64,000 nucleotides of DNA from Selaginella tamariscina. Lineage: Eukaryota; Streptophyta; Lycopodiopsida; Selaginellales; Selaginellaceae. The position numbers and the translations under genes were made by a program. Positions 12,991 to 64,000 of the stretch are shown in pieces (position 1 is the first letter of the stretch; the number at the start of each line of letters is the position of its first letter). Location of the stretch: positions 43,285 through 107,284 of the forward strand of contig PUQB01000740.1 in assembly GCA_003024785.1 (NCBI GenBank), read 5' to 3'. A model generated the notes under the pieces. The model was given only the letters and a program-made list of their open reading frames with translations. It did no database searches and was not told the DNA's origin.

Positions 12991-13031
12991 ACATAATAAT
13001 ATTAAAAAACATTTGAAAACAATCATAACAC

Positions 13032-13062
<31 letters not shown>

Positions 13063-19135: not shown

Positions 19136-19855
19136 GTTAGCCGAGGCAACGGGATTAATCCGGCCATTTTTTTTTTGCCTCTTTAAAACTCTTTAAAACA
19201 TGACAGCCGTGGCATGATTAATCCGGCCAATGCTTCCATGCCTCTTAGAAAGAGCAGCGGGATTAATTTTGCAAACAACTCTCTGAAATGATGAAGAATT
19301 AATAGAATTTATTATAAAGAATTATTGGCGGGATCAATCCTGCCCATCATTCTAAGAGGCAGAGAAGGGGTGGCGGGATTAATCTCGCCACCACTTCCCT
19401 GTTTTAGATATTTGTGGGCAAGATTTATCCTGTCGACCAGTTTAAAAGGCAGGGAAGCATTGACGAGATTAATCCTGCCACTCCCTTGAGATCTCTCTGA
19501 AATCATAACTTCGGAGAGGATTATTCCCGCCACCTATTCCCCATCGGTAAGAGTTGTGAGTGGGATTAATCGCGCCGACTCTTCCTCATCAGAGAGAGTT
19601 GGCGATGGGATTAATCCCGCCAACTCTCTCCAACAAGGAGTAACCAGCGGTGGGATTAATCCCGCCAACTTTCTTCAACGAGGAAGAGTCAGTAGTGGGA
19701 TTAATCCCGCCGCTTCTCTTTGACGAGGAAGAGTTGGCGACATGATTGAACCCGCCAACTCTCTCCAACGAGGAAGTAGTGGGCGGGATTAATCATGCCC
19801 ACCATTTTATTAGGCAGGGAAGGGGTGGCGGATTAATCTTGCCACCAATTCTATT
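19136..19855. repeat. GGATTAATCC palindrome array 2, second copy
   Basis: Longer than the copy at 14341 by one core unit (GTGGGATTAATCGCGCC and the adjacent GACTCTTCCTCATC spacer, near 19558-19605), so the array gains and loses whole units. Confidence 0.8.
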
Positions 19856-19993
19856 AATCAAGCATGATAATCTATAGTTATACATAATTATATATTATTG
19901 CACACACATATATTAAGCACCCTCGATTTAGATTTTTGGAAATATTACATAAATAAATATCATAAATAACACAATTATTTATGTGTAGGATAA

Positions 19994-21097
19994 TATTTTA
20001 ATACTGGAAATAAAGTATGTCTTCTTCGGAACAACGAGATAGTTGGCACTTGAATTGTGGAAGTTCGAGATGATAATGCGTTATGTTACAATATTGCCTA
20101 AGGATCTTATGTGTATGTATGGGTGAACACCATTTGCAAGCATGTTAAGGTTCCTAAAATGGAATTTGAAGAGGGTTCTCCTGTATTGTAGAATGTAGAT
20201 GAATTAAAAGCTGATACATAATATGTAGAGTCACAAATAAATAGTAGTACGAGTTCACCAAATGATGGCTTGCCTGCTGTAATGGATGAGATGATTCTTT
20301 TTCTTTATGAGATTGAGATTGGGAGAGGCATCATCATAGTTATAAATCCATAGAAGCCGTATCAAAAGAGAAACTAGGGGCCTACTTCGTGGGTGTAGTT
20401 GTGACAGAGGTTTCACCTAATGGCACATTGCATCTTGGATCCCTCGTGAGGTGCGAACATATGAATTAAGACGGCGAGATGGTTGAACATATTCAGGGTT
20501 GGATTTCAATAATAATAACTCGAAAGAACAACCCATATTTGAAGAGGTTTCTTGCATTGGTCCTATAGTAAAAAAAAAGGCGATTCATGGGTTGCAGATC
20601 TGCCCTTACAAGTTTTAGCAAGACGGTCAAGATCGATCTTACATCTTCGACAAGTGTTACTAGCATTTCCACGATTGACTGCTGCAAGAAAAAGTATTGT
20701 CAAATGGCAAACCGGAATGAAATTACCCAATGTAGACATGTCTTTTGTATGCTCACCCAAAAGAAAAGGCATGAGTTTGTATATGCTGCACTAACTGGGT
20801 GTATTAATAGAATGGCCTTGGACACATGTTATCAGAGTACATCCATGGTATTTAATAAGGTGGCCATTTACTTCAAAGCTTGGTACACTATATATGGGAT
20901 CCCAAAAACCACGTTCTATTGTCAAAGGGATGAGTGGCTAGATGGAGCGTGCACCTTAGTATACAGAACACTCGCCTAGTCAAAACCACTCTCACATTAT
21001 GAAACCATACAGATACTCAAGGCTTTTGTACAAGCAAATGCAAACAGGATGCCTCACAAATGCCAAACCACAAATGCAGGGGTTAAGAAAAATTTCA
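19994..21097 (+). pseudogene. Transposase-like N-terminal half, second copy in unit
   Basis: As at 15141, but more decayed. The initial ATG is lost (TAATATTTTAAT), a second stop appears (ACATAATAT near 20214), the A-run near 20572 has nine A's, and CAGAACACTC has lost a base near 20965. The open stretch is only 20587-20979. Confidence 0.58.
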
Positions 21098-21622
21098 TAC
21101 ATTTATATATGCAAACTAATGTTAAATTAAATTTACTTAATGTATATTTTCACACATTGCATTTAAGAATGCTTTATTTATATTCCATACCTTAACTTTT
21201 GTAAGTTTAGGATTTTCTTATAGTTAACTATATATGTATATGAAATGCAGTATTCTCCCCGACCCTACCCATGTGGTTGTCAACTCTAACTGTTGAGAAT
21301 GCTATTATAAGAGTAACATTTAACCATTTTAATTATCTCTTGTTTATTTTTTAATAAAGTATAAAAAAATGTAGGAGCCTAATCAAGTTGAGAAGTAATG
21401 ATAAGGGAAGTAAGAATGGAATAAGTAGAAATGTAAAAACATGTTAACTTGTAAAACATGAGATTAAATTAAATTTAATCATTATGATGAAGTTAATCAA
21501 GGAAGTTATTAAATTATATAGTAATTAAGTAAGGATATTAAACTAGACCATTGACACATATATTTAATTACAATTTACAATAATCATGTAACCAAATTTC
21601 CATGCTCCACGAGCCAAGCCTC
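21098..21622. repeat. Short flanking segment
   Basis: Direct copy of 205-728 following the inversion joint at 21097/21098. Confidence 0.7.
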
Positions 21623-22021
21623 CAACAAGCAGGTTGCACAAATGCTGGCTGAGGTGCGTGTGCGTGTGCACGTTTTATATAGATAGACACATACATATGT
21701 ACATATTGATACATACTACATACACACAACAACAACAATTTATTAATAAGTTATTGCATTGCAATTGTTTTTTGAGAAGCTACAAGAAAGGATCCAGCTT
21801 GTCGTGACTGTTGCCTAGGAGTGCTCAAACTCAGGCTCTCCAAGTCCGGTACAAGTGATGTAGCTGGTATCCGTCATCTTATGCAAAAATTGCCAACTGT
21901 AGAAACTATCCCCACAATGTTACTGGCATTACAAATCATGCATATTATGCGCCCTTGTTGCTTGCACCTAAGCCACTCATTCTTCGTAGGATCGTATGGA
22001 TTAACATTTTTAAATTAAAAC
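21623..22021 (+). pseudogene. TopA fragment, short form (module 6)
   Basis: Equivalent by position to 729-1130 and nearly identical to it, including the CCLG ribbon and the preceding one-base deletion. Confidence 0.45.
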
Positions 22022-22147
22022 CATGGTTTTTACTATTCATGAATAGTAAACCCTATTAATAATTTCTATAATGAATAAATTGAAAAAGTATTTATAAAAT
22101 TAAAAAAAATAGGATTAAATTTATGTATTTGATTTAATTTAAAATCA

Positions 22148-22663
22148 TTATATAAATTGGTTTAAAATTTGTTGATCTAAATCACCATGGTTTATTTGGT
22201 GATTTAAGCCGTTTAATCCTTTGTATACTAAAACTGCATCCTCTCCAATCAACGAGATTAAGAATAATTCATTTGACCATGTAGTACTTAAGTGTAATTC
22301 GTTCCTCCATGGTAGATTTTCCATCCATTGAACATGTCCATGTAACAATAACAAAATGGCTTAAATACCTAGATAATGCCATTCATTATAGTAGCCAATG
22401 GGTTTAAGTCCAATCTTTCCGCATATAGCAAAATCGAACTTCACACCATCTTCACCGAACTCAATAAACTGGTAGCATGTTTTCTCTTCATTGTAAACTA
22501 CATCCCCGTGAGGAGGCGGCAAAGGAGGCAGTTGTTCGATGCTTCTCTTCCAATCTTTACACACTAAACACGCAACGCACCTAGATTTCCTGGATAAGCG
22601 TGGTAGGATTTCTACCTCCACAATGTCTTGCGGCAAGCCAGGAAGAAGCTCGGCATATGCCAT
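22148..22663 (-). pseudogene. F-box protein fragment, lineage P (module 6)
   Basis: MAYAELLPG start, 100 open codons (22663 to 22361). The second part (22354 to 22148) is open in another frame. It is the unit-B equivalent of module 1. Confidence 0.7.
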
Positions 22664-22860
22664 GAGAAAATGAGATCAAATAATACCTAGGGCATAGGAC
22701 ATTCCTTAAATACCCACGATTCCACGCGCGCATCCAAGAACCGACGGCCATTCATTCATTGATGATGCTAAACCCTAATCCAATTGACCTTATACCCTTA
22801 ATCAAACCCAATTTAACACCCACACACCCATATTTGTATGGTGTGTTGCAGAGGTACTCT

Positions 22861-23870
22861 TACATTTATATATGCAAACTAATGTTAAATTAAATTTTAC
22901 TTAATGTATATTTTCACACATTGCATTTAAAAATGCTTTATTTATATTCCATACCTTAACTTTTATAAGTTAAAAAAGAGACTCTTTCTTATATTGTTAT
23001 ATGTACCCTTGTTATTTATATACATCTTAAACCCTCATAGATGCTCTATTTTAGGATTTCCTTATAATAATTAATATATATGTATATGGTTGTGAACTCT
23101 AACTATTGAGAATGCTATTATAAGAATAAGATTTAACCATTTTAATTATCTTTTGTTTATTTTTTATTAGAGTATAAAACATGTAGGACCTAATCAAGTT
23201 GAGAAGTAATGATAAGGGAAGTAAGAATGGAATAAGTAGAAATGTAAAAACATGTTAATTTGTAAAACATGAGATTAAATTAAATTTAGTCATTACAATG
23301 AATGAACCTCATGTGGACAAGGCAAGGCTAAATACTAGATTTAATTACTAGAAAATTTAAATGAATACAATACTTATATAAAAATTTATTTATAAAGTTT
23401 CTTATTTAAATATAGTATTTTTTCTTAAATGTTATAATTTAAACATAAAATATAAGGTAAATATATTTTATTTTTAATTTTAAAATGATTGAAATTATAA
23501 ACAAGGATATTTATTTATAAATAAGAAGAGTATACAAGGCTAACTTTTTTTATGAGTTTTAAAGTTGAGTTAGCGGAAAGTTAATGAGTCAATTGTAAAC
23601 AGTGATTGGTTGATTGGAAACCAACTCATATGATTCATTATGGGTTTATAAATAAATCATGAAAAAAAATATGCAAGTATGTATCATGCGATTATGTAGT
23701 ATGTTACAATACACTAGCAAAGAAATAATTTATGTTACTTAGGATCAGCAAAACCAGCACATTTTAATATTTAATTAAGGAAGTTATTAAACTAGACAGT
23801 AATTAAGTAAGGAAGTTATTAAACTAGACCATTGACACATATATTTAATTACAATTTACAATAATCATGT
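22861..23870. repeat. Long flanking segment
   Basis: Unit-B equivalent of 1966-2990; reverse complement of 31081-32140. It carries a small local inversion or shuffle near 23065 (ATAATTAATATATAT). Non-coding. Confidence 0.75.
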
Positions 23871-23989
23871 AACCAAAAATGACTATAGATCTGAAGAGTA
23901 GAACGATCAGCTTCTGCTAAATTCACTAATTAGGATATGCATGTCCATTTATATCCATATGTATATGTGTCCATGCTAACACAGTTATA

Positions 23990-24635
23990 TTACAGTTTAG
24001 GCAATATATGCAGCTGGAGAAGAGAATAGTTCCATAGGTATGGGCCAAATGGTGACAACATTCCTTTCTCGATACTTTACAGAGTTTGTAGATTATGGAT
24101 TCACATCAAAAATGGAAGAGCATCTAGACTTTATCTCCTTTGGAAGTGTTGGAGAAAAGACGTGTTCAGGCAGTTTTGGCCAAATTTCCATGCTCCACGG
24201 GCCAAGCCTCCAACAAGCAGGTTGCACAAATTCTAGCTAAGGTGCGCGCGTGTGTGCACATTTTATATAGATAGACACATACATATGTACATATTGATAC
24301 ATACTACATACACACACAACAACAGTTTATTAGTATTAAGTTATTGCATTGCAATTGTTTCTCGAGAAGCTGACAAGAAAGGATCCAGCTTGTCGTGACT
24401 GTCACCTAGGAGAGCTCAAACTCAAGCTCTCCAAGTCCGATACGAGTGATGTAGCTGGTATCCGTCATCTCATGCAAAAATTGCTAATTGTAGAAACTAT
24501 CTCCACAATGTTACTGGCATTGCAAATCATGCATATTATGCGCCCTTGTTGCTTGCACCTAATCCACTCATTCTTCGTAGGATTGTATGGATTAACATTT
24601 TTAAATTAAACCATGGTTCTTACTATTCATGAATA
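23990..24635 (+). pseudogene. TopA (type IA topoisomerase) fragment, long form (module 7)
   Basis: The clearest TopA copy. After TTACAG (23995) comes a frame with MGQMVTTFLSRYFTEF, VDYGFTSKMEEHLDFIS and GSVGE (24040-24165). A one-base frame change then gives KDVFRQFWPNFHA. SNKQVAQ lies before an intron (GTGCGCG donor to CTCGAG). The next exon reads EKLTRKDPACRDCHLGE, LKLKLSKSD. This corresponds to the end of the TopA core domain plus a C-terminal zinc ribbon; the catalytic tyrosine and TOPRIM regions are absent. The extra exon-intron seen at 3556-3670 is missing here. Confidence 0.62.
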
Positions 24636-24725
24636 GTAAACCCTATTAATAATTTCTATAATCAATAAATTATAAAATTAAAGAATATAGGATTAAATTT
24701 ATGTATTTGATTTAATTTAAAATTA

Positions 24726-25238
24726 TTATATAAATTGGTTTAAAATTTGTTGATCTAAACCACCATGGTTTATTTGGTGATTTAAACCGTTCAATCCTTC
24801 GTATACTAAAACTGCATCCTCTCCAATCAACGAGATTAAGGATAAGTCATTTGACCATGTAGTACTTAAGTGTAATTCGTTCCTCCATGATAGATTTTTC
24901 CATTCAATGTACATGTCCATGTAACAATAACAAAATGGCTTAAATACCCATACCATGCCATTACAGTAGCCTATCTGTTTAAGTCCAATCTTTCCACACA
25001 TAACAAAATCAAACTTCATACCATCTTCACCAAACTCAATAAACTGGTAACATGTTTTCTCTTCATTGTAAACTATAATCCCGTGAGGAGGCGGTAACAG
25101 AGGCAGTTGTTCGATGCTTCTCTTCCAATCTTTACACACTAAACACGCAACGCACCTGGATTTCCTGGATAAGCGTGGCAGGATTTCCACCTTCACAATG
25201 TCTTGCAGCAAGCAAGGAAAAAGCTGGGGATATGCCAT
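24726..25238 (-). CDS. F-box protein, lineage Q, intact 170-codon frame (module 7)
   Basis: Open from MAYPQLFPCLLQDIV to LNQFI without interruption. The F-box has ILPRLSRKSRC and VCKDWK, but GLPQ is replaced by CLLQ, which may weaken the first helix. It is three residues shorter than the frame at 11599 (MYIEWKNL against MYSGKLEWKNL). Copy 45458-45970 is identical. It lies immediately downstream of the transposase middle part on the same strand, 110 bp away. Whether it is expressed is unknown. Confidence 0.55.
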   Translation of the reverse strand: MAYPQLFPCLLQDIVKVEILPRLSRKSRCVACLVCKDWKRSIEQLPLLPPPHGIIVYNEEKTCYQFIEFGEDGMKFDFVMCGKIGLKQIGYCNGMVWVFKPFCYCYMDMYIEWKNLSWRNELHLSTTWSNDLSLISLIGEDAVLVYEGLNGLNHQINHGGLDQQILNQFI

Positions 25239-25339
25239 GAAAAAATGAGATTAAATAATACCTAGGGCATAGGACATTCCTTAAATACCCACGATTCCAT
25301 GCACGCTTCTAGGATTCCACGCACTCATCCAAGAACCGA

Positions 25340-26056
25340 TAATAGATTTATGAATTCAATATGTTACATACACATAGATTGAGTACATATGGAACATACA
25401 TGTGTTTAACATAATGTTTTCGATAACAAGTCTTTTTGTTGACTTTCTTACCTCCAATACATGCTTTCCATGTCCTAGGGTTCTTTTGCACAAGGTCTCC
25501 TCCTTGGGGGTACTCGTCAAATACGGGTTCATCTCTGTGGTGTGGGGACTCATTATAGCCGTCACTCTGACCTACGTCTAGAGGGCGTGAAAAGCTTCCT
25601 TGTGTCCATGTGTTAGCATACATATCAATAAAATCGGAAGTTTTATAACATTTCCAAGGCACTTTGGTGTTGTAACGAGCCTTGGAATGCTAGTCTTTAA
25701 ATGATCCATCTTGTCATGGATCAAGCACAGGTATTCGAATGGGCGTGAGACAGAAAGCATGAGGTGTGCATAGTACTGAGACCGGCAAGTTTGTTGTGCA
25801 ATCATGTGGGCCTCCATCTTCTTTTGAATGGCAATGATCTCCACCAAGGTTTTTGCATAAGCCTCTGCAGGCTTCAATGATGTACAAGTGTCACACTTGG
25901 AAAAGCTAGAGTGTTTTGCAATCTCCACATTCTTAAAATAAGTATTCCATATATTGTTGAAGGTACGAGTGAAGATTGCTTGGAGCCCCATCAAACTGAG
26001 GCACTTGTTCACATGTTCACACAGCTTTAATTGAGTGTAGATTGAAGGCAAAACCT
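25340..26056 (-). pseudogene. Transposase-like middle part, inverted copy 2
   Basis: Open from 26051 to 25578 (157 codons): KLCEHVNKCLSLMGLQAIF, NIWNTYFKN, FSKCDTCTSLKPAEAYAK, HDKMDHLKTSIPRL, LTHGHKEAFHAL. It then shifts frame into DGYNESPHHRDEPVFDEYPQ (25662 to 25348). The normal continuation after LTHGH (seen decayed at 9260-9850) is deleted, so the second and third acidic motifs are absent. Confidence 0.62.
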
Positions 26057-41830: not shown

Positions 41831-42356
41831 TACATTTATATATGCAAACTAATGTTAAATTAAATTTTACTTAATGTATATTTTCACACATTGCATTTAA
41901 GAATGCTTTATTTATATTCCATACCTTAACTTTTGTAAGTTTAGGATTTTCTTATAGTTAACTATATATGTATATGAAATGCAGTATTCTCCCCGACCCT
42001 ACCCATGTGGTTGTCAACTCTAACTGTTGAGAATGCTATTATAAGAGTAACATTTAACCATTTTAATTATCTCTTGTTTATTTTTTAATAAAGTATAAAA
42101 AAATGTAGGAGCCTAATCAAGTTGAGAAGTAATGATAAGGGAAGTAAGAATGGAATAAGTAGAAATGTAAAAACATGTTAACTTGTAAAACATGAGATTA
42201 AATTAAATTTAATCATTATGATGAAGTTAATCAAGGAAGTTATTAAATTATATAGTAATTAAGTAAGGATATTAAACTAGACCATTGACACATATATTTA
42301 ATTACAATTTACAATAATCATGTAACCAAATTTCCATGCTCCACGAGCCAAGCCTC
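41831..42356. repeat. Short flanking segment
   Basis: Direct copy of 205-728. Confidence 0.7.
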
Positions 42357-42755
42357 CAACAAGCAGGTTGCACAAATGCTGGCTGAGGTGCGTGTGCGTG
42401 TGCACGTTTTATATAGATAGACACATACATATGTACATATTGATACATACTACATACACACAACAACAACAATTTATTAATAAGTTATTGCATTGCAATT
42501 GTTTTTTGAGAAGCTACAAGAAAGGATCCAGCTTGTCGTGACTGTTGCCTAGGAGTGCTCAAACTCAGGCTCTCCAAGTCCGGTACAAGTGATGTAGCTG
42601 GTATCCGTCATCTTATGCAAAAATTGCCAACTGTAGAAACTATCCCCACAATGTTACTGGCATTACAAATCATGCATATTATGCGCCCTTGTTGCTTGCA
42701 CCTAAGCCACTCATTCTTCGTAGGATCGTATGGATTAACATTTTTAAATTAAAAC
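42357..42755 (+). pseudogene. TopA fragment, short form (module 11)
   Basis: Equivalent to 729-1130. Confidence 0.45.
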
Positions 42756-42881
42756 CATGGTTTTTACTATTCATGAATAGTAAACCCTATTAATAATTTC
42801 TATAATGAATAAATTGAAAAAGTATTTATAAAATTAAAAAAAATAGGATTAAATTTATGTATTTGATTTAATTTAAAATCA

Positions 42882-43396
42882 TTATATAAATTGGTTTAAA
42901 ATTTGTTGATCTAAATCACCATGGTTTATTTGGTGATTTAAGCCGTTTAATCCTTTGTATACTAAAACTGCATCCTCTCCAATCAACGAGATTAAGAATA
43001 ATTCATTTGACCATGTAGTACTTAAGTGTAATTCGTTCCTCCATGGTAGATTTTCCATCCATTGACATGTCCATGTAACAATAACAAAATGGCTTAAATA
43101 CCTAGATAATGCCATTCATTATAGTAGCCAATGGGTTTAAGTCCAATCTTTCCGCATATAGCAAAATCGAACTTCACACCATCTTCACCGAACTCAATAA
43201 ACTGGTAGCATGTTTTCTCTTCATTGTAAACTACATCCCCGTGAGGAGGCGGCAAAGGAGGCAGTTGTTCGATGCTTCTCTTCCAATCTTTACACACTAA
43301 ACACGCAACGCACCTAGATTTCCTGGATAAGCGTGGTAGGATTTCTACCTCCACAATGTCTTGCGGCAAGCCAGGAAGAAGCTCGGCATATGCCAT
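42882..43396 (-). pseudogene. F-box protein fragment, lineage P (module 11)
   Basis: Essentially identical to module 1, including the small deletion giving VTWTCQWMENL in the second part. Confidence 0.7.
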
Positions 43397-43593
43397 GAGA
43401 AAATGAGATCAAATAATACCTAGGGCATAGGACATTCCTTAAATACCCACGATTCCACGCGCGCATCCAAGAACCGACGGCCATTCATTCATTGATGATG
43501 CTAAACCCTAATCCAATTGACCTTATACCCTTAATCAAACCCAATTTAACACCCACACACCCATATTTGTATGGTGTGTTGCAGAGGTACTCT

Positions 43594-44605
43594 TACATTT
43601 ATATATGCAAACTAATGTTAAATTAAATTTTACTTAATGTATATTTTCACACATTGCATTTAAAAATGCTTTATTTATATTCCATACCTTAACTTTTATA
43701 AGTTAAAAAAGAGACTCTTTCTTATATTGTTATATGTACCCTTGTTATTTATATACATCTTAAACCCTCATAGATGCTCTATTTTAGGATTTCCTTATAA
43801 TTAATTATATATGTATATGGTTGTGAACTCTAACTATTGAGAATGCTATTATAAGAATAAGATTTAACCATTTTAATTATCTTTTGTTTATTTTTTATTA
43901 GAGTATAAAACATGTAGGAGCCTAATCAAGTTGAGAAGTAATGATAAGGGAAGTAAGAATGGAATAAGTAGAAATGTAAAAACATGTTAATTTGTAAAAC
44001 ATGAGATTAAATTAAATTTAGTCATTACAATGAATGAACCTCATGTGGACAAGGCAAGGCTAAATACTAGATTTAATTACTAGAAAATTTAAATGAATAC
44101 AATACTTATATATAAAATTTATTTATAAAGTTTCTTATTTAAATATAGTATTTTTTCTTAAATGTTATAATTTAAACATAAAATATAAGGTAAATATATT
44201 TTATTTTTAATTTTAAAATGATTGAAATTATAAACAAGGATATTTATTTATAAATAAGAAGAGTATACAAGGCTAACTTTTTTTATGAGTTTTAAAGTTG
44301 AGTTAGCGGAAAGTTAATGAGTCAATTGTAAACAGTGATTGGTTGATTGGAAACCAACTCATATGATTCATTATGTTTATAAATAAATCATGAAAAAAAA
44401 TATGCAAGTATGTATCATGCGATTATGTAGTATGTTACAATACACTAGCAAAGAAATAATTTATGTTACTTAGGATCAGCAAAACCAGCACATTTTAATA
44501 TTTAATTAAGGAAGTTATTAAACTAGACAGTAATTAAGTAAGGAAGTTATTAAACTAGACCATTGACACATATATTTAATTACAATTTACAATAATCATG
44601 TAACC
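43594..44605. repeat. Long flanking segment
   Basis: Equivalent to 1966-2990 and 22861-23870. Confidence 0.75.
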
Positions 44606-44719
44606 AAAAATGACTATAGATCTGAAGAGTAGAACGATCAGCTTCTGCTAAATTCACTAATTAGGATATGCATGTCCATTTATATCCATATGTATATATG
44701 TGTCCATGCTAACACAGTT

Positions 44720-45355
44720 ATATTACAGTTTAGGCAATATATGCAGCTGGAGAAGAGAATAGTTCCATAGGTATGGGCCAAATGGTGACAACATTCCTTT
44801 CTCGATACTTTACAGAGTTTGTAGATTATGGATTCACATCAAAAATGGAAGAGCATCTAGACTTTATCTCCTTTGGAAGTGTTGGAGAAAAGACGTGTTC
44901 AGGCAGTTTTGGCCAAATTTCCATGCTCCACGGGCCAAGCCTCCAACAAGCAGGTTGCACAAATTCTAGCTAAGGTGCGCGCGTGTGTGCACATTTTATA
45001 TAGATAGACACATACATATGTACATATTGATACATACTACATACACACACAACAACAGTTTATTAGTATTAAGTTATTGCATTGCAATTGTTTCTCGAGA
45101 AGCTGACAAGAAAGGATCCAGCTTGTCGTGACTGTCACCTAGGAGAGCTCAAACTCAAGCTCTCCAAGTCCGATACGAGTGATGTAGCTGGTATCCGTCA
45201 TCTCATGCAAAAATTGCTAATTGTAGAAACTATCTCCACAATGTTACTGGCATTGCAAATCATGCATATTATGCGCCTTGTTGCTTGCACCTAATCCACT
45301 CATTCTTCGTAGGATTGTATGGATTAACATTTTTAAATTAAACCATGGTTCTTAC
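44720..45355 (+). pseudogene. TopA fragment, long form (module 12)
   Basis: As at 23990-24635 (frames 44773-44973 and 45082-45294). A C is missing from the CGCCC run near 45275, which ends the ribbon frame early. Confidence 0.6.
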
Positions 45356-45457
45356 TATTCATGAATAGTAAACCCTATTAATAATTTCTATAATCAATAA
45401 ATTATAAAATTAAAGAATATAGGATTAAATTTATGTATTTGATTTAATTTAAAATTA

Positions 45458-45970
45458 TTATATAAATTGGTTTAAAATTTGTTGATCTAAACCACCATGG
45501 TTTATTTGGTGATTTAAACCGTTCAATCCTTCGTATACTAAAACTGCATCCTCTCCAATCAACGAGATTAAGGATAAGTCATTTGACCATGTAGTACTTA
45601 AGTGTAATTCGTTCCTCCATGATAGATTTTTCCATTCAATGTACATGTCCATGTAACAATAACAAAATGGCTTAAATACCCATACCATGCCATTACAGTA
45701 GCCTATCTGTTTAAGTCCAATCTTTCCACACATAACAAAATCAAACTTCATACCATCTTCACCAAACTCAATAAACTGGTAACATGTTTTCTCTTCATTG
45801 TAAACTATAATCCCGTGAGGAGGCGGTAACAGAGGCAGTTGTTCGATGCTTCTCTTCCAATCTTTACACACTAAACACGCAACGCACCTGGATTTCCTGG
45901 ATAAGCGTGGCAGGATTTCCACCTTCACAATGTCTTGCAGCAAGCAAGGAAAAAGCTGGGGATATGCCAT
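45458..45970 (-). CDS. F-box protein, lineage Q, intact 170-codon frame (module 12)
   Basis: Same 170-residue protein as 24726-25238, uninterrupted, again 110 bp downstream of the transposase middle part on the same strand. Confidence 0.55.
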   Translation of the reverse strand: MAYPQLFPCLLQDIVKVEILPRLSRKSRCVACLVCKDWKRSIEQLPLLPPPHGIIVYNEEKTCYQFIEFGEDGMKFDFVMCGKIGLKQIGYCNGMVWVFKPFCYCYMDMYIEWKNLSWRNELHLSTTWSNDLSLISLIGEDAVLVYEGLNGLNHQINHGGLDQQILNQFI

Positions 45971-46071
45971 GAAAAAATGAGATTAAATAATACCTAGGGC
46001 ATAGGACATTCCTTAAATACCCACGATTCCATGCACGCTTCTAGGATTCCACGCACTCATCCAAGAACCGA

Positions 46072-46787
46072 TAATAGATTTATGAATTCAATATGTTACA
46101 TACACATAGATTGAGTACATATGGAACATACATGTGTTTAACATAATGTTTTCGATAACAAGTCTTTTTGTTGACTTTCTTACCTCCAATACATGCTTTC
46201 CATGTCCTAGGGTTCTTTTGCACAAGGTCTCCTCCTTGGGGGTACTCGTCAAATACGGGTTCATCTCTGTGGTGTGGGGACTCATTATAGCCGTCACTCT
46301 GACCTACGTCTAGAGGGCGTGAAAAGCTTCCTTGTGTCCATGTGTTAGCATACATATCAATAAAATCGGAAGTTTTATAACATTTCCAAGGCACTTTGGT
46401 GTTGTAACGAGCCTTGGAATGCTAGTCTTTAAATGATCCATCTTGTCATGATCAAGCACAGGTATTCGAATGGGCGTGAGACAGAAAGCATGAGGTGTGC
46501 ATAGTACTGAGACCGGCAAGTTTGTTGTGCAATCATGTGGGCCTCCATCTTCTTTTGAATGGCAATGATCTCCACCAAGGTTTTTGCATAAGCCTCTGCA
46601 GGCTTCAATGATGTACAAGTGTCACACTTGGAAAAGCTAGAGTGTTTTGCAATCTCCACATTCTTAAAATAAGTATTCCATATATTGTTGAAGGTACGAG
46701 TGAAGATTGCTTGGAGCCCCATCAAACTGAGGCACTTGTTCACATGTTCACACAGCTTTAATTGAGTGTAGATTGAAGGCAAAACCT
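46072..46787 (-). pseudogene. Transposase-like middle part, inverted copy 3
   Basis: As at 25340-26056, but one G is missing from CATGGATC (near 46450). The frame therefore shifts just before DKMDH: one frame ends LCLIMTRWII, the other continues HDKMDHLKTSIPRL. Confidence 0.6.
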
Positions 46788-53689: not shown

Positions 53690-54076
53690 AAAATGTTAAT
53701 CCATACACGATCCTATGAAGAATGAATGGCTTAGGTGCAAGCAACAAGGGCGCATAATATGCATGATTTGCAATGCCAGTAACATTGTAGGGATAGTTTT
53801 TACAGTTGGCAATTTTTACATGAGATGACGGATATCGGCTACATCACTCGACTTGGAGAGCTTGAGTTTGAGCTCTCCCAAGTGACAGTCACGACAAGTT
53901 GGATTCTTTCTTGTCAATTTCTCGAAAAACAATTGCAATGCAATAACTTATTAATAAATTGTTGTTGTTGTGTGTATGTAGTATGTATCAATATGTACAT
54001 ATGTATGTGTCTATCTATATAAAACGTGCACATGCACACGCACCTCAACCAGCATTTGTGCAACCTGCTTGTTGGA
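53690..54076 (-). pseudogene. TopA fragment, short form (module 14)
   Basis: As in module 9; the palindrome arm is deleted and it ends at the array junction. Confidence 0.42.
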
Positions 54077-54099
54077 TATTAATTCCACCACCCTTCTCC

Positions 54100-54415
54100 A
54101 TCTCAGACAAAAGTGGCCAGGATTGATTTGGCCCACCAGATTAGGAGACAAAGAAGGTGGCGGGATTAATCCCGCCACCCCTTCCATGCATGTTGGGCGA
54201 GATTAATCCCGCCCACGACACTCTCATATGGATAATGATGGTGGGCGGGATTAATCATGCGCCACACTCATTGAGACATGAAGGGTGGCGGGATTAATCC
54301 CGGCACCCCTTCTATGACCGGTGAAGGAGATTAATTCTCCCACCATCACACAGTCGAGCCCACCAGGCATAGAAGAGTCGGTGGGATTAATCCCACCCAC
54401 CAGGCATGGAAATAT
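54100..54415. repeat. GGATTAATCC palindrome array 1, copy 3
   Basis: Contains the best palindrome in the window: GGTGGCGGGATT/AATCCCGCCACC at 54156-54179, 24 bp with no mismatch. About 50 bp present in the other copies (CCTTTATGTCTC...) are missing near 54385. Confidence 0.82.
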
Positions 54416-54457
54416 GACATAATGATATTAAAAAACATTTGAAAACAATCATAACAC

Positions 54458-54517
<60 letters not shown>

Positions 54518-55815
54518 TATAAAATCTTTATACTAATATAAACTAAATCCATGCATATTTTTCTAATTATTTAATATAAATTTACTCTAAACACTAAACA
54601 TATGTAAGTCTCAATGTAGAGTGTGTGTAACTATAAATGTTTGATTTGGGATTTAAACTCTAAATCATAAATACAAAGTAGATGCTTTATTTATATCGTG
54701 ATCCACTCATCGGCTTGTGCATGTGTGTGCATATGTATCTCTGTAAGTGCTTCTAATGCGTGTGCACGTGTATATGTAAATTTTTTATTGTGTTTATATA
54801 TGTGTGCAAAAGAAATGAATTAAAGTAAAAATGATATTAATATACACACTATGAACATAATATTATATCATTTTATTTAATATATAGTCATATATAGTTT
54901 TAATAATATATATTAATTTAATATTGATAATAAGGTTTAACAATGGAATATTCTTAAAATAATAAGAAATTAATTGAGAAAATCCCATTAATATATACAA
55001 ATGTAGAATAATTACTAAAATAATTAACTAATTTAATTATGATAATCATGTTTAATATTGGAATATTTTAGAATAATAAGAAAATAATAAAGAATATCTC
55101 ATTAATATAAAGAAATGTAGATTAATTACTCGAATAATTAAGAAAATAATATTAATAAACACACTATGAATATATTATAAATGATACATAATAATATATC
55201 AATTTATTTATTGTATAAGTATATATATTTATATATATACTTAATAATATGTACTAGAATATTAAGAATGTAGAATAATTCTTAAAATTTCATAATATTA
55301 AACAGCTTGAATCACTTGAATCATATTAAATGCAATTTATAAAAATAATTGGAATTAAAGAGTATATATCTTAGAGTGTCGATTATTTATGTTAACTCAT
55401 CTTAAATTTTATTTTATTTTATTTTTAAAAATTTAAAATTATGACATAAATATTATTAGTCTAACATGTAAATTTAAAAATGCATTTAATTCCCATTCAA
55501 ATTCAGATCTGGTTTTTTCTTCAGCAAGAGTTTGTTTATTTTTATAATTTTCTCTCTTCAGATCTTCTTTTTTCTTGATAGTGATCACCTAAGGAGCGAC
55601 ATTAAATTAGGTGTTATTGTTTATAAGAAAGCACAACGCCTTCAATGCTGTTTACAAGTAAGTATTATAAATAAATTTAGAAATACTTATAAAGATTCAC
55701 TCTCTTACATTCTCTCTTAAAATTAAAATTTAGGGGTTTAGGAATCCATTAGCATTACATTATATTTCATTAGGGATTTATCTCGTTTACGCATCCTTTT
55801 CACTTAAAATTCTCG
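54416..55815. other. AT-rich spacer, copy in K3
   Basis: Equivalent to 12991-14340 but more diverged; includes the long AT run and the complete leader hairpin CACCTAA...TTAGGTG near 55585-55612. No gene. Confidence 0.6.
54459..54514. repeat. (AT)n microsatellite, about 56 bp
   Basis: Twice the length of the equivalent runs at 13038 and 33764. Confidence 0.92.
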
Positions 55816-56580
55816 GTTAGCCGGGGCGATGGAATTAATCCGGCCATTTCTTTTTGCCTCTTTAAAACTCTTTAAAACATGAAAGCCGTGGCATGATTAA
55901 TCCGGCCAATGCTTCCCCGCCTCTTAAAAAGGGCAGTGAGATTAATTTTACAGAGAACTCTCTAAAATGATGAAGAGTTAATAGAATTTATTATAAAGAA
56001 TTATTGACGGGATCAATCCTGCCCATCATTCTAAGAGGCAGAGAAGGGGTGGCGGGATTAATCTCGCCACCACTTCCTTGTTTTAGAGATTTGTGGCAGG
56101 ATTTATCTCGCCGACTAGTTTAGGAGGCAGGGAAGCATTGACGGGATTAATCTTGCCACTCCCTCGAGATCTCTCTGAAATCATAGCTCGGAGAAAGGAT
56201 TATTCCCGCCACCTACCCATCAGTAAGAGTTGTGAGTGGGATTAATCCCGCCGACTCTTCCTCATCGGAGAGATTCGGCGATGGGATTAATCCCACCAGC
56301 TCTCTCCAATATGGAGTAACCAGCAGTAGGATTAATCCCGCCAACTCTCTCCAACGAGGAAGAGTTAGCAGCGAGATTAATCCCGCTGCTTCTCTTCGAT
56401 GAGGAAGAGCTGGTGACATGATTGAACCCGCCGACTCTCTCCAACGAGGAAGAGTCAGCGGCGGGATTAATCCCACTGACTCTTTCTCGTCGGAGGGAGT
56501 AGTGGGCGGGATTAATCTTGTCCACCATTCTATTAGGCAGGGAAGTGGTGGCGGGATTAATCCCGCCACTAATTGTATTA
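55816..56580. repeat. GGATTAATCC palindrome array 2, copy in K3
   Basis: Has one or two more core units than 14341-14995 and cleaner palindromes, for example a 22-bp perfect one at 56548-56569. The 118- and 107-codon minus-strand frames here (56213-56585) are repeat translations (GLIPPL..., GGINPA...). Confidence 0.8.
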
Positions 56581-56722
56581 ATCAAGCATGATAATCTATA
56601 GTTATATATAATTATATATTATTGCACACACATATATATTAAGCACCCTCGATTCAGATTTTTTTGGAAATATTACATAAATAAATATCATAAATAACAC
56701 AATTATTTATGTGCAGGACAAT

Positions 56723-57730
56723 ATGTTTAATACTGGAGATAAAGTATGTCTTCTTCGGAACAACGAGACAGTTGGCACTTGAATTGTGGAAGTTTGAGAT
56801 GATAATGCGTCATGTCACAATATTGCCTAAGGATCTTATGTGTATGTATGGGTGAACACCATTTGCAAGCATGTTGAGGTTCCTAGAATGGAATTTGAAG
56901 AGGGTTCTCCTGTATTGTGGAATGTGGATGAAGTCAAAGTTGATACAGAATATACAGAGTCACAAATAAATAATAGTACGAGTTCACCAAATGATGGCTT
57001 GCCTGCTGTGATGGATGAGATGATTCTTTTTCTTCATGAGATCGAGATTGGGAGAGGCTATAAATCCAATGGAAGCCGTATCAGAAGAGAAACTAGGGCC
57101 TATTTTGTGGGTGTAGTTGTGACAGAGGTTTCACCTAATGGCACATTGCATCTTAGATCCCTCGTGAGGTGGCAAACATATGAATTAAGACGGCGAGATG
57201 ATTAAAGATATTCAGGGTTGGATTTCAATAATAACAACCCGAAAGAACAACCCATATTTGAAGAGGTTCCTTGCATTGATCATATAGTAAGAAAAAGGCA
57301 ATTCATGGGTTGCAGATCTGCCCTTGCAAGTTTTAGCAAGAAGGTCAAGATGGATCCTACATCTTTGGCAAGTGTTACTAGCATTTCCACGATTGATTGC
57401 TACAAGAAGAAGTGTTGTCAAATGGCAAACCGGAATGAAATTACCCAATGTAGACATGTCTTTCGTATGCTCACCCAAAAGCAAAGGCATGAGTTTGTAT
57501 ATGCTGCACTAACTGAATAGAATGGCCTTGGACACAGGTTATCAGAGTACATCCATGGTATTTAATAAGGTGACCATTTACTTCAAAGCTTGGTACATTA
57601 TATATGGGATCCCAAAAACCACGTTCTACTGTCAGCCTTACAGATACTCAAGGCTTTTTGTAGAAGCAAATGCAGGCAGGATGCCTCACAAATGACAAAC
57701 CACAAATGCAAGGGTCAAGAAAAATTTCAA
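56723..57730 (+). pseudogene. Transposase-like N-terminal half, least decayed copy
   Basis: Starts after an acceptor-like TTATTTATGTGCAG. Frame 56840-57205 is open: ICKHVEVPRMEFEEGSPVLW, NVDEVKVDTEYTESQ, GLPAVMDEMILFLHEIEIG, FVGVVVTEVSPNGTLHL. It keeps TGG at 56918 where other copies have TAG. Next is FNNNNPKEQPIFEEV and QCRHVFRMLTQKQRHEFVYA (57218-57520). About 93 bp around RDEWLDGA are deleted near 57633. It runs without a joint into the middle part at 57731. Confidence 0.62.
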
Positions 57731-58400
57731 GGTTTTGCCTTCAATCTACACTCAATTGAAGCTGTGTGAACATGTGAACAAGTGCCTCAGTTTGATGGGG
57801 CTCCAAGCAATCTGCACTGGTATCTTCAACAATATTGGAGATTATAAAACACTCTAGCTTTTCCAAGTGTGACACTTGTACATTATTGAAGCCTGCAGAG
57901 GCTTGTGCAAAAACCTTGGCGGAGATCACTGCCATTTAAAAAAAGATGGAGGCCCACATGATTGCACAACAAACTTGCCAGTCTTAGTACTATGCACACC
58001 TCATGCTTTCTGTCTCACGCCCATTAGAATACCTGTGCTTGATCCATGGCAAGATGGATCATTTAAAGACCAGCATTCCAAGGCTCATTGCAACACCAAA
58101 GAGCCTTGAAAATGTTATGAAACTTTCAATTTTATTGACAGGTATGCTAACACATGGACACAAGGAAGGTTTTCACACCCTCTAGACGTAGGTGAGAGTG
58201 ACAGCTATAATGAGTCCCCACACCATAGAAATGAACCCGTATTTGACGAGTACCCCAAGGGAGGAGACCTTGTGCAAAGGAACCCTAGGACATGGAAAGC
58301 ATGTGTTGGAGGTAAGAAACTCAACAAAAAGACTTGTTATCGAAAACATTATGTTAAACGCATGTATGTTCCATATTATGTGTATGTAACATATTGAATT
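57731..58400 (+). pseudogene. Transposase-like middle part, in original orientation
   Basis: Continues GVKKNF with KVLPSIYTQLKLCEHVNKC and SLMGLQAI. It then loses about 20 bp covering NIWNTYFKN, reads CDTCTLL-like sequence, then YLCLIHGKMDHLKTSIPRL (Gly replaces Asp in the first DKMDH aspartate, HGKMDH) and LTGMLTHGHKEGFHTL. The tail frame has NESPHHRNEPVFDEYPKGGD and NPRTWKAC. So even this copy has lost a candidate catalytic residue. Confidence 0.6.
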
Positions 58401-58514
58401 CATAAATCTATTGTCAGTTCTTGGATGAGTGCGTGGAATCCTAGAAGCGTGCATGGAATTATGGGTATTTAAGGAATGTCCTATGCCCTAGGTATTATTT
58501 AATCTCATTTTTTC

Positions 58515-59027
58515 ATGGCATATCCCCAGCTTTTTCCTGGCTTGCCGCAAGACATTGTGGAGGTGGAAATCCTGCCACGCTTATCCAGGAAATCCAGGTG
58601 TGTTGCGTGTTTAGTGTGTAAAGATTGGAAGAGAAGCATCGAACAACTGCCTCTGTTACCGCCTCCTCACGGGATTATAGTTTACAATGAAGAGAAAACA
58701 TGTTACCAATTTATTGAGTTTGGTGAAGATGGTATGAAGTTTGATTTTGTTATGTGTGGAAAGATTGGACTTAAATAGATAGGCTACTGTAATGGCATGG
58801 TATGGGTATTTAAGCCATTTTGTTATTGTTACATGGACATCTACATTGAATGGAAAAATCTATCATGGAGGAACGAATTACACTTAAGTACTACATGGTC
58901 AAATGACTTATCCTTAATCTCGTTAATTGGAGAGGATGCAGTTTTAGTATACGAAGGATTGAACGGTTTAAATCACCAAATAAACCATGGTGGTTTAGAT
59001 CAACAAATTTTAAACCAATTTATATAA
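58515..59027 (+). pseudogene. F-box protein fragment, lineage Q (module 15), nonsense mutation
   Basis: MAYPQLFPGLPQDIVE with the normal GLPQ (unlike CLLQ in modules 2, 7 and 12). A CAG-to-TAG change ends the frame after GKIGLK (58778). The rest is open in the same frame from 58797. It is preceded directly by the transposase tail, as in modules 2, 7 and 12. Confidence 0.7.
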
Positions 59028-59147
59028 TGATTTTAAATTAAATTAAATACATAAATTTAATCTTATATTCTTTAATTTTATAAATACTTTTTCAATTTAT
59101 TCATTATAGAAATTATTAATAGGGTTTACTATTCATGAATAGTAAGA

Positions 59148-59575
59148 ACCATGGTTTAATTTAAAAATGTTAATCCATACGATCCTATGAAGAATGAGTG
59201 GCTTAGGTGCAAGCAACAAGGGCGCATAATATGCATGATTTGCAATGCCAGTAACATTGTGGGGATAGTTTCTACAGTTGGCAATTTTTGCATGAGATGA
59301 CGGATACCAGCTACATCACTTGTACCGGACTTGGAGAGCCTGAGTTTGAGCACTCCTAGGCAACAGTCACGACAAGCTGGATCCTTTCTTGTAGCTTCTC
59401 AAAAAACAATTGCAATGCAATAACTTATTAATAAATTGTTGTTGTTGTGTGTATGTAGTATGTATCAATATGTACATATGTATGTGTCTATCTATATAAA
59501 ACGTGCACACGCACACGCACCTCAGCCAGCATTTGTGCAACCTGCTTGTTGGAGGCTTGGCTCGTGGAGCATGGA
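59148..59575 (-). pseudogene. TopA fragment, short form (module 15)
   Basis: Ribbon of the CCLG type shared with modules 1, 5, 6, 10 and 11, showing that those inverted modules descend from this one on the TopA side. Confidence 0.47.
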
Positions 59576-60051
59576 AATTTGGTTACATGATTATTGTAAA
59601 TTGTAATTAAATATATGTGTCAATGGTCTAGTTTAATATCCTTACTTAATTACTATATAATTTAATAACTTCCTTAATTAACTTCATCATAATGATTAAA
59701 TTTAATTTAATCTCATGTTTTACAAGTTAACATGTTTTTACATTTCTACTTATTCCATTCTTACTTCCCTTATCATTACTTCTCAACTTGATTAGGCTCC
59801 TACATTTTTTTATACTTTATTAAAAAATAAACAAGAGATAATTAAAATGGTTAAATGTTACTCTTATAATAACATTCTCAACAGTTAGAGTTGACAACCA
59901 CATGGGTAGGGTCGGGGAGAATACTGCATTTCATATACATATATAGTTAACTATAAGAAAATCCTAAACTTATAAAAGTTAAGGTATGGAATATAAATAA
60001 AGCATTTTTAAATGCAATACAATTTAACATTAGTTTGCATATATAAATGTA
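59576..60051. repeat. Short flanking segment, reversed
   Basis: Reverse complement of 205-728; it leads into the leader of module 16. About 100 bp present upstream of module 4 are missing. Confidence 0.7.
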
Positions 60052-60267
60052 AGAGTACCTCTGCAACACACCATACAAATATGGGTGTGTGGGTGTCAAA
60101 TTGGGTTTAATTAAGGTATATGGTCAATTGGATTAGGGTTTAGCATCATCAATGAATGAATGGCCGTCGGTTCTTGGATGCCCACGTGGAATCCTGGAAG
60201 TGTGCATGGAATCGTGGGTATTTAAGGAATGTCCTATGCCCTAGGTATTATTTGATCTCATTTTTTC

Positions 60268-60790
60268 ATGGCATATCCGAGCTTCTTCCTGGCTTGCCGC
60301 AAGACATTGTGGAGGTGGAAATCCTGCCACGCTTATCCAGGAAATCTAGGTGCGTTGCTGTTTAGTGTGTAAAGATTGGAAGAGAAGCATCGAACAACTG
60401 CCTCCTTTGCCGCCTCCTCACGGGGTTGTAGTTTACAATAAAGAGAAAACATGCTACCAGTTTATTGAGTTCGGTGAAGATGGTGTGAAGTTCGATTTTG
60501 CTATATGCGGAAAGATTGGACTTAAACCCATAGGCTACTATAATGAATGGCATTATTTGGGTATTTAAGCCATTTTGTTATTGTTACATGGACATGTGCA
60601 GTGGTAAACTTGAATGGAAAAATCTACCATGGAGGAATGAATTACACCTAAGTAATACATGGTCAAATGAATTATCCTTAATCTCTTTGATTGGAGAGAT
60701 GTAGTTTTAGTATACAAAGGATTAAACGGTTTAAATCACCAAATAAACCATGGTGGTTTAGATCAACAAATTTTAAACCAATTTATATAA
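60268..60790 (+). pseudogene. F-box protein fragment, lineage P (module 16)
   Basis: As module 3, with one C missing right after the start (CATATCCGAGC) and one base missing in GTTGCGTGTTT (near 60358), so the F-box is split over frames. A base is also lost near 60698. Confidence 0.68.
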
Positions 60791-60895
60791 TGATTTTAAA
60801 TTAAATTAAATACATAAATTTAATCTTATATTCTTTAATTTTATAAATACTTTTTCAATTTATTTATTATAGAAATTATTAATAGGGTTTACTAT

Positions 60896-61350
60896 TCATG
60901 AATAGTAAGAACCATGGTTTAATCTAAAAATGTTAATCCATACGATCCTACTAAGAATGAGTGGATTAGGTGCAAGCAACAACGGAGGGTGCATAATATG
61001 CATGATTTGCAATGCCAGTAACATTGTGGAGATAGTTTCTACAATTGGCAATTTTTGCATGAGATGACGGGTACCGGCTACACCACTCATAGCGGACTTG
61101 GAGAGCTTAAGTTTGAGCTCTCCCAAGTGACAGTCACGACAAGCTGGATCCTTTCTTGTCAGCTTCTCGAAAAACAATTGCAATGCAATAACTTAATATT
61201 AATAAATTGTTGTTGTGTGTGTATGTAGTATGTATCAATATGTACATATGTATGTGTCTATCTATATAAAATGCACACACACATGCACCTCAGCCAGCAT
61301 TTGTGCAACCTGCTTGTTGGAGGCTTGGCCCGTGGAGCATGCAAATTTGG
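60896..61350 (-). pseudogene. TopA fragment, short form (module 16)
   Basis: Open for 95 codons (61183 to 60896) with the ribbon KDPACRDCHLGELKLKLSKS. Confidence 0.5.
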
Positions 61351-61794
61351 CCAAAACTGTTGTTAATGGTGTTGGTTCTAAAATAAATAGAACACTAACC
61401 ACCACTTGAGCATGTGACAAAGCATCTATCGAGCATGTTTACATATCATATGCTTCTTCTTCAAAATCGATTGCACCACCACATGATCACACATGGAAGA
61501 ACCATGAAGATAAGCATGAAATTTATGGAATGCTCAAACAATCATCAAACACTCCTTACTTGTAGTCAAATAATTGAGGTTCAGATTGCTAAGACTTCAA
61601 CTAACATATAAAATGAATTAGAAGTAGGAATTTCTTACATGAGATCAACACTCATATTAATATTTAAAGCATTAATACAAAAATAAAGGGATGAAAGAAA
61701 TCAAGGTAATGAAGAAAATGGACAAAGTTAAGAGATGAATAAGAGATTAAAAAAATATTGACACTTAGAGACTAAGAGAAAGAAGAGAACTATA

Positions 61795-62250
61795 GTAAAG
61801 CATGAAATGGATTTGTTTCATCAGACAAATGAGAAAAAATTATGCCAAGTATGTGGCCTTGCCCAAGAACTATTGAAGCTCGTGATGTGTCTTTGACACA
61901 AAAACTCTTCCATCACGAGAAATAACAACTCTTAAATACTTGACAGAAGTTTAGCCAAACTTAATAAAATCATCCATTTGTGGTATAGGGTACTATTTGG
62001 TATTGTCACATAATTTGCAAGTCATAAATCTATTGTGAAATGCATGTCACAATTTACTTCCTTGATGATATGAGACTCAAAAGCCCAAGAACTACACAAA
62101 GGTTGCATCACACCTCGAGCTAACATATATTGAACAACTTGTGTCATAACCTTTCCCTCTCCCCCTAAGTCAACGAAGCAAAGGGCTAATTGGTATTTAT
62201 GAAAGGGCCCTGGTCATGATGACCCAGGGTTGCTTGAGTCTTTCTCATAT
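61795..62250 (-). pseudogene. Ty3/gypsy reverse-transcriptase relic, copy 4
   Basis: As copy 2 but with one C missing from GGGCCCCTGG (near 62211), which breaks the first frame. Confidence 0.58.
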
Positions 62251-62456
62251 ATCCCACATATCACACAATCTTTACACATGTTGTAATTCACTAGGTCAAA
62301 ACTATGACAACTTGCGACATCTCTTGCTTCTTTGATAGTGATCAATGATGAATCAAAGCCTTGATTGGTGCTACATCCTACGTATCAATTCAATGTTAGT
62401 GTTGACTTCAATTCTTCTAGCAACAACAAGTTGCTACAAATCAAAAAACCGATTGG

Positions 62457-62533
62457 GCATTTTAGGGGCATGCATGTCCAAGGTTGTGAAGAAAGACTTT
62501 TTGTATCAAGGATAGTGCATGTCCCTAAAATGC
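62457..62533. repeat. 77-nt hairpin, copy 4
   Basis: The right arm is TGCATGTCCCTAAAATGC: one change restores pairing at the position mismatched in other copies and another creates a new mismatch, leaving 17 of 18 paired. Confidence 0.68.
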
Positions 62534-63145
62534 TGCGAGTTTAATTCTTTTAGTAAGAGGTTGGTGCATTGCCTAAGCAAGATTAACAAGGGAAATTGTA
62601 TAAAATTGTACAATTATGTGTACAAAAGAATACAGATAGCTACGTTAATGCACAACATGCACTTGACATCATTTATTGATTGAATTTTGATATAAATATT
62701 TAAGTTATTCATTTTTAAGGAAACATTATAGATCCTCAAATTTTGAGTGTGAAAAGGCATGTGTATTAGCTTAAGTAAAGAATGACAATTGTGATACTCA
62801 CAGAGAAACATGTGCACAAGGGTTGTTGTAGCCTAGGAAATTCTCTCTCACACGCACACGTGTGCAAAGATTAAATTACAATTGGTTAAGAGAACATATG
62901 TAGTTGATTCATGAACTTCAACTCGAGAAGCGTATTGAGCACATCTCTCAATCATCTCAAACTCTCCATGAAGTTTACAACAACTCAAGAGTGTACTCCA
63001 CTCTATATCCTGTTGACAGTGGTTGACCATTGTCAAACATCTAGCTGGCGTGAGCGAGGAGAAGCAGAGGACATACAACGGGTGCAGACTAACAACTCAA
63101 ATCCATATTTGTATCTCTCACAAGGGGTTTTTCATTTGTATTACT
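62534..63145. other. Unassigned region, copy 4
   Basis: Equivalent to 7732-8340 and 49276-49885. Confidence 0.4.
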
Positions 63146-63439
63146 TTATTTCTTCAGATTTCCTCTTTCCTTGTTAGGAGCAACACTAAATTGGGTGTTA
63201 TCATATAAAAAAAGCATGACACAGCTGTGCTTTACAATCAAGTATTATAAACAAATTTAAAGTACTTATAAAGACTCACTCTCTTACAATCAAAATTTAG
63301 GGTTTACATAAACAAATTTATATCTCTTTATAAATACATACTACTTTTATGAATCCATTAGGATTGCACTAGAATTTGTTAGGGATTTATCTTATTTACA
63401 CATCCCATTTACTTCGAATTATTGATTAGCCGAGATTTC

Positions 63440-63640
63440 ATATAATTCTCGATGGGGAATTAATCCCGCCAATGCTTCCCCGCCTCTAAAATGGTAGGCA
63501 TGACTAATTTTGTCCACAACTTTCTGAATCAGGGAGAGGTGGCATGATTAATTCTGCCAATGCTTCCCCACCCACAACTCTCTAGGGTGACGAGATTAAT
63601 CTTGCCCACCATTTTAAAAGTGGGGAAGCATTGACGGGAT
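63440..63640. repeat. Small GGATTAATCC palindrome array, copy 4
   Basis: Equivalent to 8651-8850, with minor indels. Confidence 0.7.
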
Positions 63641-64000
63641 TAATCTAAACTCAATTGAAGTTGTGTGAACATGTGAATAACTGCCTCAGTTTGATGGGGG
63701 CTCCAAACAATCTACACCAATACCTTGAACAACATATAGATTACTCAGTTTAAAGATGTGGAGATTGCAAAACACTCTAGTTTTTTCAAGTGTGACACTT
63801 GTACATCATTAAAGATTGTAAATGCTTTTGTGCAAAACCCTTGGTGGAGATCATTGCCATTCAAAAAAGATGGAGGCCCACATGATTGCACAACAAACTT
63901 GCCGATCTAATTACTATGCACACTGCATGCTTTGTATGTCACGCCCATTAGAATACCTGTGCTTAATCCACGATAAGATTGATCATTGAAAGACCAACAT
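63641..64000 (+). pseudogene. Transposase-like middle part, copy 4, cut by window end
   Basis: Start of the decayed half seen at 8851; readable to the region around the family DKMD motif (63970-64000), here decayed as in the other K-block copies. Confidence 0.55.

Follow-up and report, generated by a model that had tools for sequence, protein, structure and literature searches.

The DNA analysed here (hereafter the window, 64,000 nucleotides of Selaginella tamariscina) corresponds to C1105:43285-107284 in a genome of 300.7 Mb divided among 1391 contigs; the last base of C1105, a contig of 107,284 bp, is window base 64000. At this locus, remnants of F-box genes are arrayed in tandem, and the units of the array, as delimited by self-comparison (Table 1), are up to 99.96% alike. 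The modules of the array were named as follows: F and T2 are the two halves of a split frame, G stands for the F-box copies, which are called Gy, Gx, Gd and Gp according to position, with G58 for the copy in the block 57730-60051, U, U' and U'' are the regions preceding G, the D module is the right part of the unit, and N54 is the spacer preceding F. In derived units D and E the modules are arranged as D...U'-Gp-N54-F/rcU-rcGx-F/rcU-rcGx-rcU''-rcGy-rcT2/D, where the slash marks a joint.

Table 1 Features of the array in window coordinates (LR, likelihood ratio as given in the text)
Feature	Coordinates	Strand	Details
Inverted segment, derived unit C (without the 4.8-kb duplication)	205..5248	-	5044 bp
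Array unit D	5249..26056	+	20.8 kb, by self-comparison
Older, internally deleted copy of the element (F-upstream, minisatellite, T2), collinear order	8320..9282	+	
4.8-kb duplication, first copy (F + rcU + rcGx + start of rcU'')	13498..18233	+	second copy 18281-23088
Inverted segment, derived unit D (rcU-rcGx-rcU''-rcGy-rcT2)	21098..26056	-	4959 bp
Array unit E	26057-46787		20.7 kb, by self-comparison
4.8-kb duplication, same pair in next unit	34227-38963 and 39010-43819		
Inverted segment, derived unit E	41831..46787	-	4957 bp
Old-state unit	46788-60051		13.3 kb, by self-comparison
Left arm of old-state unit, N54 + F (first half of putative DUF7869-type element)	53788..57729	+	4.79% from derived template
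T2, second half of element, follows F without a break; opens the inverted segment	57730..58412	+	38/682 mismatches against derived T2
Block between breakpoints, old orientation	57730..60051		2322 bp; without 2576 bp found in the inverted version
G58, mosaic remnant of an F-box gene (Gy-like as far as 59146, Gx-like from 59181)	58413..59582	+	PF00646 20.5 bits; LR 50.2
U, precedes next F-box copy; end = right breakpoint	59583..60051	+	
Gd60 + D, right flank	60052..64000	+	1.09% from derived template (43/3941 mismatches)

The F-box was recognised in G58 (58503-58775) exactly at the Pfam cut-off of 20.5 bits, and three other F-box copies that were tested scored just under it (19.2-20.3 bits). Neither Rfam, at its gathering threshold, nor a tRNA scan found anything in the window, and no match to 57500-58420 was found in a plasmid collection. 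One unit on C1105 is damaged. At C1105:28094-34507 (L011, L012), a stretch of about 6.4 kb that is almost devoid of array-module matches interrupts one unit that lacks the greater part of F and the beginning of D; the sole module matches of this stretch are two short ones to F, at 71-77%.

The split element and its polarity

The frame formed by F and T2 had been called transposase-like from the sequence alone, a label that we could not retain: the pieces in the window fall below every Pfam cut-off, whereas less decayed dispersed relatives match DUF7869 (PF25273). One of these, L017, has a 640-codon frame whose pieces match the family in two frames (E 2.3e-12 and 6.1e-27), and another, L020, matches it with E 2.9e-12. 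The element thus appears to be of the DUF7869 type, identified only through these relatives, and it differs from the proteins of the dispersed elements in that the copy at the locus is decayed. Viral contigs searched with the T2 protein gave no match.

Joined in the window, F and T2 give 363 stop-free codons, whereas none of 2000 simulated shuffles exceeded 258. Third-position changes were not in excess in a codon-position test for past selection on F and T2, suggesting that the copies drifted as dead sequence. The evidence that the frame is continuous comes from the open run and from the relatives. When the joint region 57600-57900 was searched in the genome, 39 of the best 40 of 728 candidates were other places where the match, at 83-89% identity, runs across the joint, and the remaining one was a 34-base fragment; the ranking favours full-length matches and the 39 represent no fraction. 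At all eight loci fetched from among the 39, the match was a single alignment of 291-295 bases, and three more continuous copies, on C63, C134 and C574, were found beyond those 39. In addition, the window itself contains the older copy of the element in collinear order (Table 1), with identities of 67% and 81%, whose first piece scored 114 bits against a maximum of 37.4 in 60 shuffles. Because the dispersed relatives, the open 363-codon run and this older copy agree, the unbroken F-T2 frame represents the ancestral state.

A 45-bp minisatellite around GGGATTAATCCCGCC precedes the coding part of the element at 14750-14919, 19518-19785, 35481-35652, 40246-40504 and 56283-56483. On C574, an element remnant (L047, C574:331240-331620) lies between N54 and an F-box copy, with a short inverted repeat seen by eye. 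This place was considered as an empty site of the element and rejected, as it keeps the last ~36 bases of T2; we read it as a probable internally deleted copy.

Two reciprocal joints of a balanced inversion

In the old-state unit the frame passes from F into T2 without a break at 57729/57730. The sequence-only reading had seen this continuity correctly and had put it one base too far, at 57730/57731. Among the 182 breakpoint pairs tested, 57730-60051 was the best, with 0/24 mismatches at the left joint and 1/24 at the right joint, and the runner-up pairs had three mismatches in total. The window contains five left joints F/rcU (204/205, 16245/46, 21097/98, 36976/77 and 41830/31) and three right joints rcT2/D (5248/49, 26056/57 and 46787/88). 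Flipping 57730-60051 on paper predicts each of the eight with 2/60 bases off (30 on each side) and with zero bases gained and zero lost, so the earlier proposal that the inversion gives both junctions to the base was borne out by the alignment of the joints, with the start set at 57730. When 60 bases are taken to either side, the right joints are 5/120 off the prediction and the left joints 21-23/120; the latter value goes with a 26-base indel near 60019, and 26 gapped bases form part of a local difference at the end of U. Ignoring gaps, U of the block (59583-60051) and the inverted U at 21098-21600 share 98.7% of their bases.

The same joints recur elsewhere in the genome. The full 161 bases of the F/rcU joint were matched at 98-100% at at least nine places (best 40 of 299 candidates) and those of the rcT2/D joint, also at 98-100%, at at least eight (best 40 of 582 candidates), on contigs C1105, C369, C134 and C63; agreement on this scale argues against chance. 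The central 60 bases are exact at 9/9 loci for the left joint and at 7/8 for the right joint, the exception being L042, and one event therefore suffices. As expected of a cut-and-rejoin inversion, the joints are reciprocal and one segment predicts all of them (5/5 left and 3/3 right), and T2 of the split copy lies on the minus strand in the inverted units A, C, D and E of C1105. Forward T2-like pieces in unit D (80-81%) are part of the older remnant. A balanced inversion with exactly these breakpoints is thus confirmed to the base.

Within about 600 bases of the breakpoints, a search for inverted repeats listed eight matches of only 9-14 bases (E ≥0.62); among these, no inverted repeat connects the two breakpoints, as recombination between such repeats would require. 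The joints have neither microhomology nor lost or gained bases, as in blunt end joining (NHEJ). Because they show no homology, loss or gain, two double-strand breaks followed by blunt rejoining would be the simplest account, and we infer this pathway of repair. One break falls inside the putative DUF7869-type element and the other at the recurring U/G boundary, and the joints are clean; for these reasons an aberrant reaction of the element's own enzyme, and not chance breakage, may be considered as the cause, but we regard it as very unlikely.

A mosaic block, probably shortened, and its unflipped relatives

The sequence-only reading had taken the 2.3-kb block of the window to be the segment that was inverted. 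The sizes do not agree with this: the inverted stretches in the window measure 4957-5044 bp against 2322 bp for the block, the additional content being U''-Gx, and alignment of the block to the uninverted derived template leaves a single gap of 2576 bases, which the aligner placed after 59070. Moreover, the F-box copy of the block is a mosaic. Gy and Gx differ at 76 fixed, diagnostic sites. Of these, G58 carries the Gy base at 45/51 up to 59146 and the Gx base at 23/25 from 59181; the likelihood ratio of this change point (50.2) was reached in 0/10000 permutations, whose maximum was 22.1. Other parent pairs, which were not permuted, gave 71.4 for Gp/Gx (with the switch at 59294-59307), 28.8 for Gd/Gx, 20.6 for Gy/Gp and 12.0 for Gy/Gd, and both Gp/Gx and Gd/Gx turn Gx-like on the right. 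Gy is the natural choice for the left parent, being the copy next to T2 and the one with which G58 clusters in the tree (support 0.971); the left parent could also be Gp-like, which fits too. A mosaic copy with a switch, together with one missing period, is what unequal homologous exchange leaves, and the 2.3-kb block is probably a shortened recombinant rather than the segment that was flipped. For the direction of the exchange, loss in the window block as opposed to gain elsewhere, the evidence comes from C63.

Along the old-state unit, divergence from the derived template is uneven. The unit is array-like left of 53788 (11/6981 mismatches in 46788-53787), and the values then become 4.79% in 53788-57729 (180/3760), 5.57% in T2, 2.18% in the left part of G (16/734), 1.03% in the right part of G plus U (9/871) and 1.1% in D. 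These unequal values indicate that exchange or conversion moved pieces between units. T2 plus the left part of G differ from the right part of G plus U (Fisher P 3.5e-5), and the drop falls near the switch of G58, at ~59.15 kb. In its final 96 bases (57634-57729), directly before the left breakpoint, F shows 100% identity to an element copy on C369 (L002, C369:500435-503725), whereas the derived F copies depart from it; a short tract of conversion next to the joint is the likely cause. Loss has also shortened an inverted block on C134 (L029, joint 27520-27680), where an internal deletion lies between Gx and Gy, so that shortening of this kind is not unique to the window block.

The window copy had also been regarded as the only one in which F continues into T2, and here relatives on other contigs changed the picture. 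Near-full-length matches to the T2/G joint were found at at least 16 places (best 40 of 472 candidates), namely eight in inverted units, the window block and seven others. At three of the seven non-inverted matches F/T2 is continuous, at C63:22.8, C134:22.4 and C574:337.6 kb, with the T2/G match ~0.5 kb further on. At C574:316.2, C63:4.3 and C134:7.9 kb neither half was found within 301 bases at the estimated F/T2 place, where the spacing may differ, and for the seventh match the estimated place lies beyond the contig end. Since it is also read on C63, C134 and C574, the continuity does not depend on C1105 alone. The U/Gd-D order is likewise unbroken on C574.

The size of the original segment can be judged on C63. 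T2 starts at 22835, T2/G lies at 22314-21978, pieces of U'' lie at ~19.5-19.9 kb, and U ends at 17901, where Gd and D follow; the copy running down from 19400 is nearest to Gx (94.1%), with Gd at 93.4%. These positions fit an unflipped block T2-Gy-U''-Gx-U of ~4.94 kb, whose part at 19.4-21.98 kb is known as search matches only. The C63 unit appears to be an older relative and not the direct ancestor, judging from the identity of its U (87%) and Gd (94.6%) to the window modules. C63 also carries an inverted unit, so both states are present on a contig besides C1105. In the assembly, the coexistence of the old and flipped states is thereby confirmed, in agreement with the earlier view that a pre-inversion state with the ancestral unbroken frame is preserved beside the derived one.

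Order of events and alternative readings

The array had earlier been said to reveal the sequence of the events, and the sharing of joints supports this. The flip occurs with a single F in the unit at C1105:3493-19516 and in the unit ending at window 5248, and single F/rcU matches on C369, C134 and C63 point to single-F flipped units there as well. The 4.8-kb duplication is present in two units, and the joint is found in both of its copies. The inversion by itself does not explain every other unit, as had been proposed, because these two units also need the 4.8-kb tandem duplication and one C1105 unit is damaged. Read from the shared joints, the order is the flip, then the 4.8-kb duplication and then the 20.7-kb amplification; if the single-F units had lost a second F, the precedence of the flip over the duplication would be unchanged. 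The 2.6-kb loss in the window block would belong to the uninverted lineage, and the joints alone give no timing for it relative to the flip. We rejected percent identity as a clock for these events, since exchange has mixed the units.

We propose that the array started as an F-box remnant locus with a dispersed DUF7869-type copy, in the order F-T2-Gy-U''-Gx-U-Gd. Two breaks would have occurred, one inside the element and the other exactly at the U/Gd boundary, and the segment T2-Gy-U''-Gx-U of ~4.9 kb, a make-up that we infer, would have been rejoined in reverse without loss, gain or microhomology. The inverted unit would then have been copied; one lineage would have duplicated F+rcU+rcGx (4.8 kb), and that 20.7-kb unit would have been amplified. 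The block at 57.7-60.05 kb would descend from the uninverted state and have lost 2.58 kb by unequal exchange between Gy and Gx, rather than by conversion plus deletion, while keeping both ancestral breakpoints. Against this account stand the divergence between modules, which no single split accounts for, the likely conversion beside the left breakpoint, the fit of a Gp-like left parent, and the C63 unit, an older relative read in part. Taken as a whole, this account of a ~4.9-kb flip, later duplications and a window block shortened by exchange seems to us probable.

Small inversions repaired by non-homologous end joining are a known kind of event. Like those, the inversion described here has two joints at which no bases were lost or gained and which lack inverted repeats, and it differs in that the old and new orders stand in one tandem family, where the event can be placed among duplications. 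The Co-2 cluster of common bean is outlined in PMC6102362 as an array shaped by NHEJ and homologous recombination; segmental duplications and unequal homologous recombination within the cluster, as outlined there, are the likeness, whereas that cluster consists of NBS-LRR genes and the present one of F-box remnants and an apparently DUF7869-type element, with one inversion of which both states are kept. A literature search, mostly at the level of listings, found no description of this array. This is an ordinary kind of event in array evolution, in an unusually legible setting, and not a new mechanism. Several structural states lie on few contigs (old, old with the 2.6-kb loss, flipped, and flipped plus duplicated), and the event order and the role of the F-box copies as exchange points are readable from joints, not clocks. 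The array is a good test case in that the old and new arrangements of one inversion and the later duplications are found in one tandem family.

Other explanations of the window block were weighed against this proposal. The 2.3-kb block might, as it stands, be the ancestral segment, the derived units having gained 2.6 kb at or after the inversion. Both joints fit such a course equally well, as the outer ends are common to both versions, and a mosaic would likewise result if unequal crossing-over with a diverged partner had added a G-U period; however, the positions on C63 agree with ~4.94 kb of uninverted sequence in which the modules keep the same order, and a single parent switch in G58 with a change of divergence nearby is what is expected of a fusion of two copies, so we hold this explanation to be unlikely while leaving it a small chance. 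A re-inversion of a derived unit is compatible with the orientation by itself and is hardly credible: it would take another event that hit exactly the two bases of the first, many dispersed element copies are unbroken at the joint (39 among the matches listed), the old-state unit lacks the 4.8-kb duplication, and F and T2 are ~5% off the derived template, with no near-identity to any one derived unit.

A false join close to the end of C1105 has to be considered, given that the assembler stopped nearby, at window 64000, and that array units are up to 99.96% alike. Nevertheless, both sides of 57730 differ from the derived copies in the window (F 4.8%, T2 5.6%), and F/T2 continuity with the T2/G match 0.5 kb on is repeated on C63, C134 and C574, which makes an assembly artefact highly improbable. 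Finally, the inverted orientation may act as a barrier that blocks exchange with the neighbours and keeps the old state divergent, which would be compatible with the ~4.9-kb flip and the shortened block proposed above. The island of divergence around the block in a nearly uniform array is what such a barrier would produce, but the divergence is off-centre, being high in the non-inverted F and dropping inside the block near 59.15 kb, and we give the barrier little weight. In line with exchange between direct F-box copies, which accounts for the mosaic block, the identity step at ~53.8-54.0 kb lies close to the end of the F-box copy Gp (52881 to ~54.1 kb). An (AT)27 run is present at 54461-54514, near the step at 53.8-54.5 kb.
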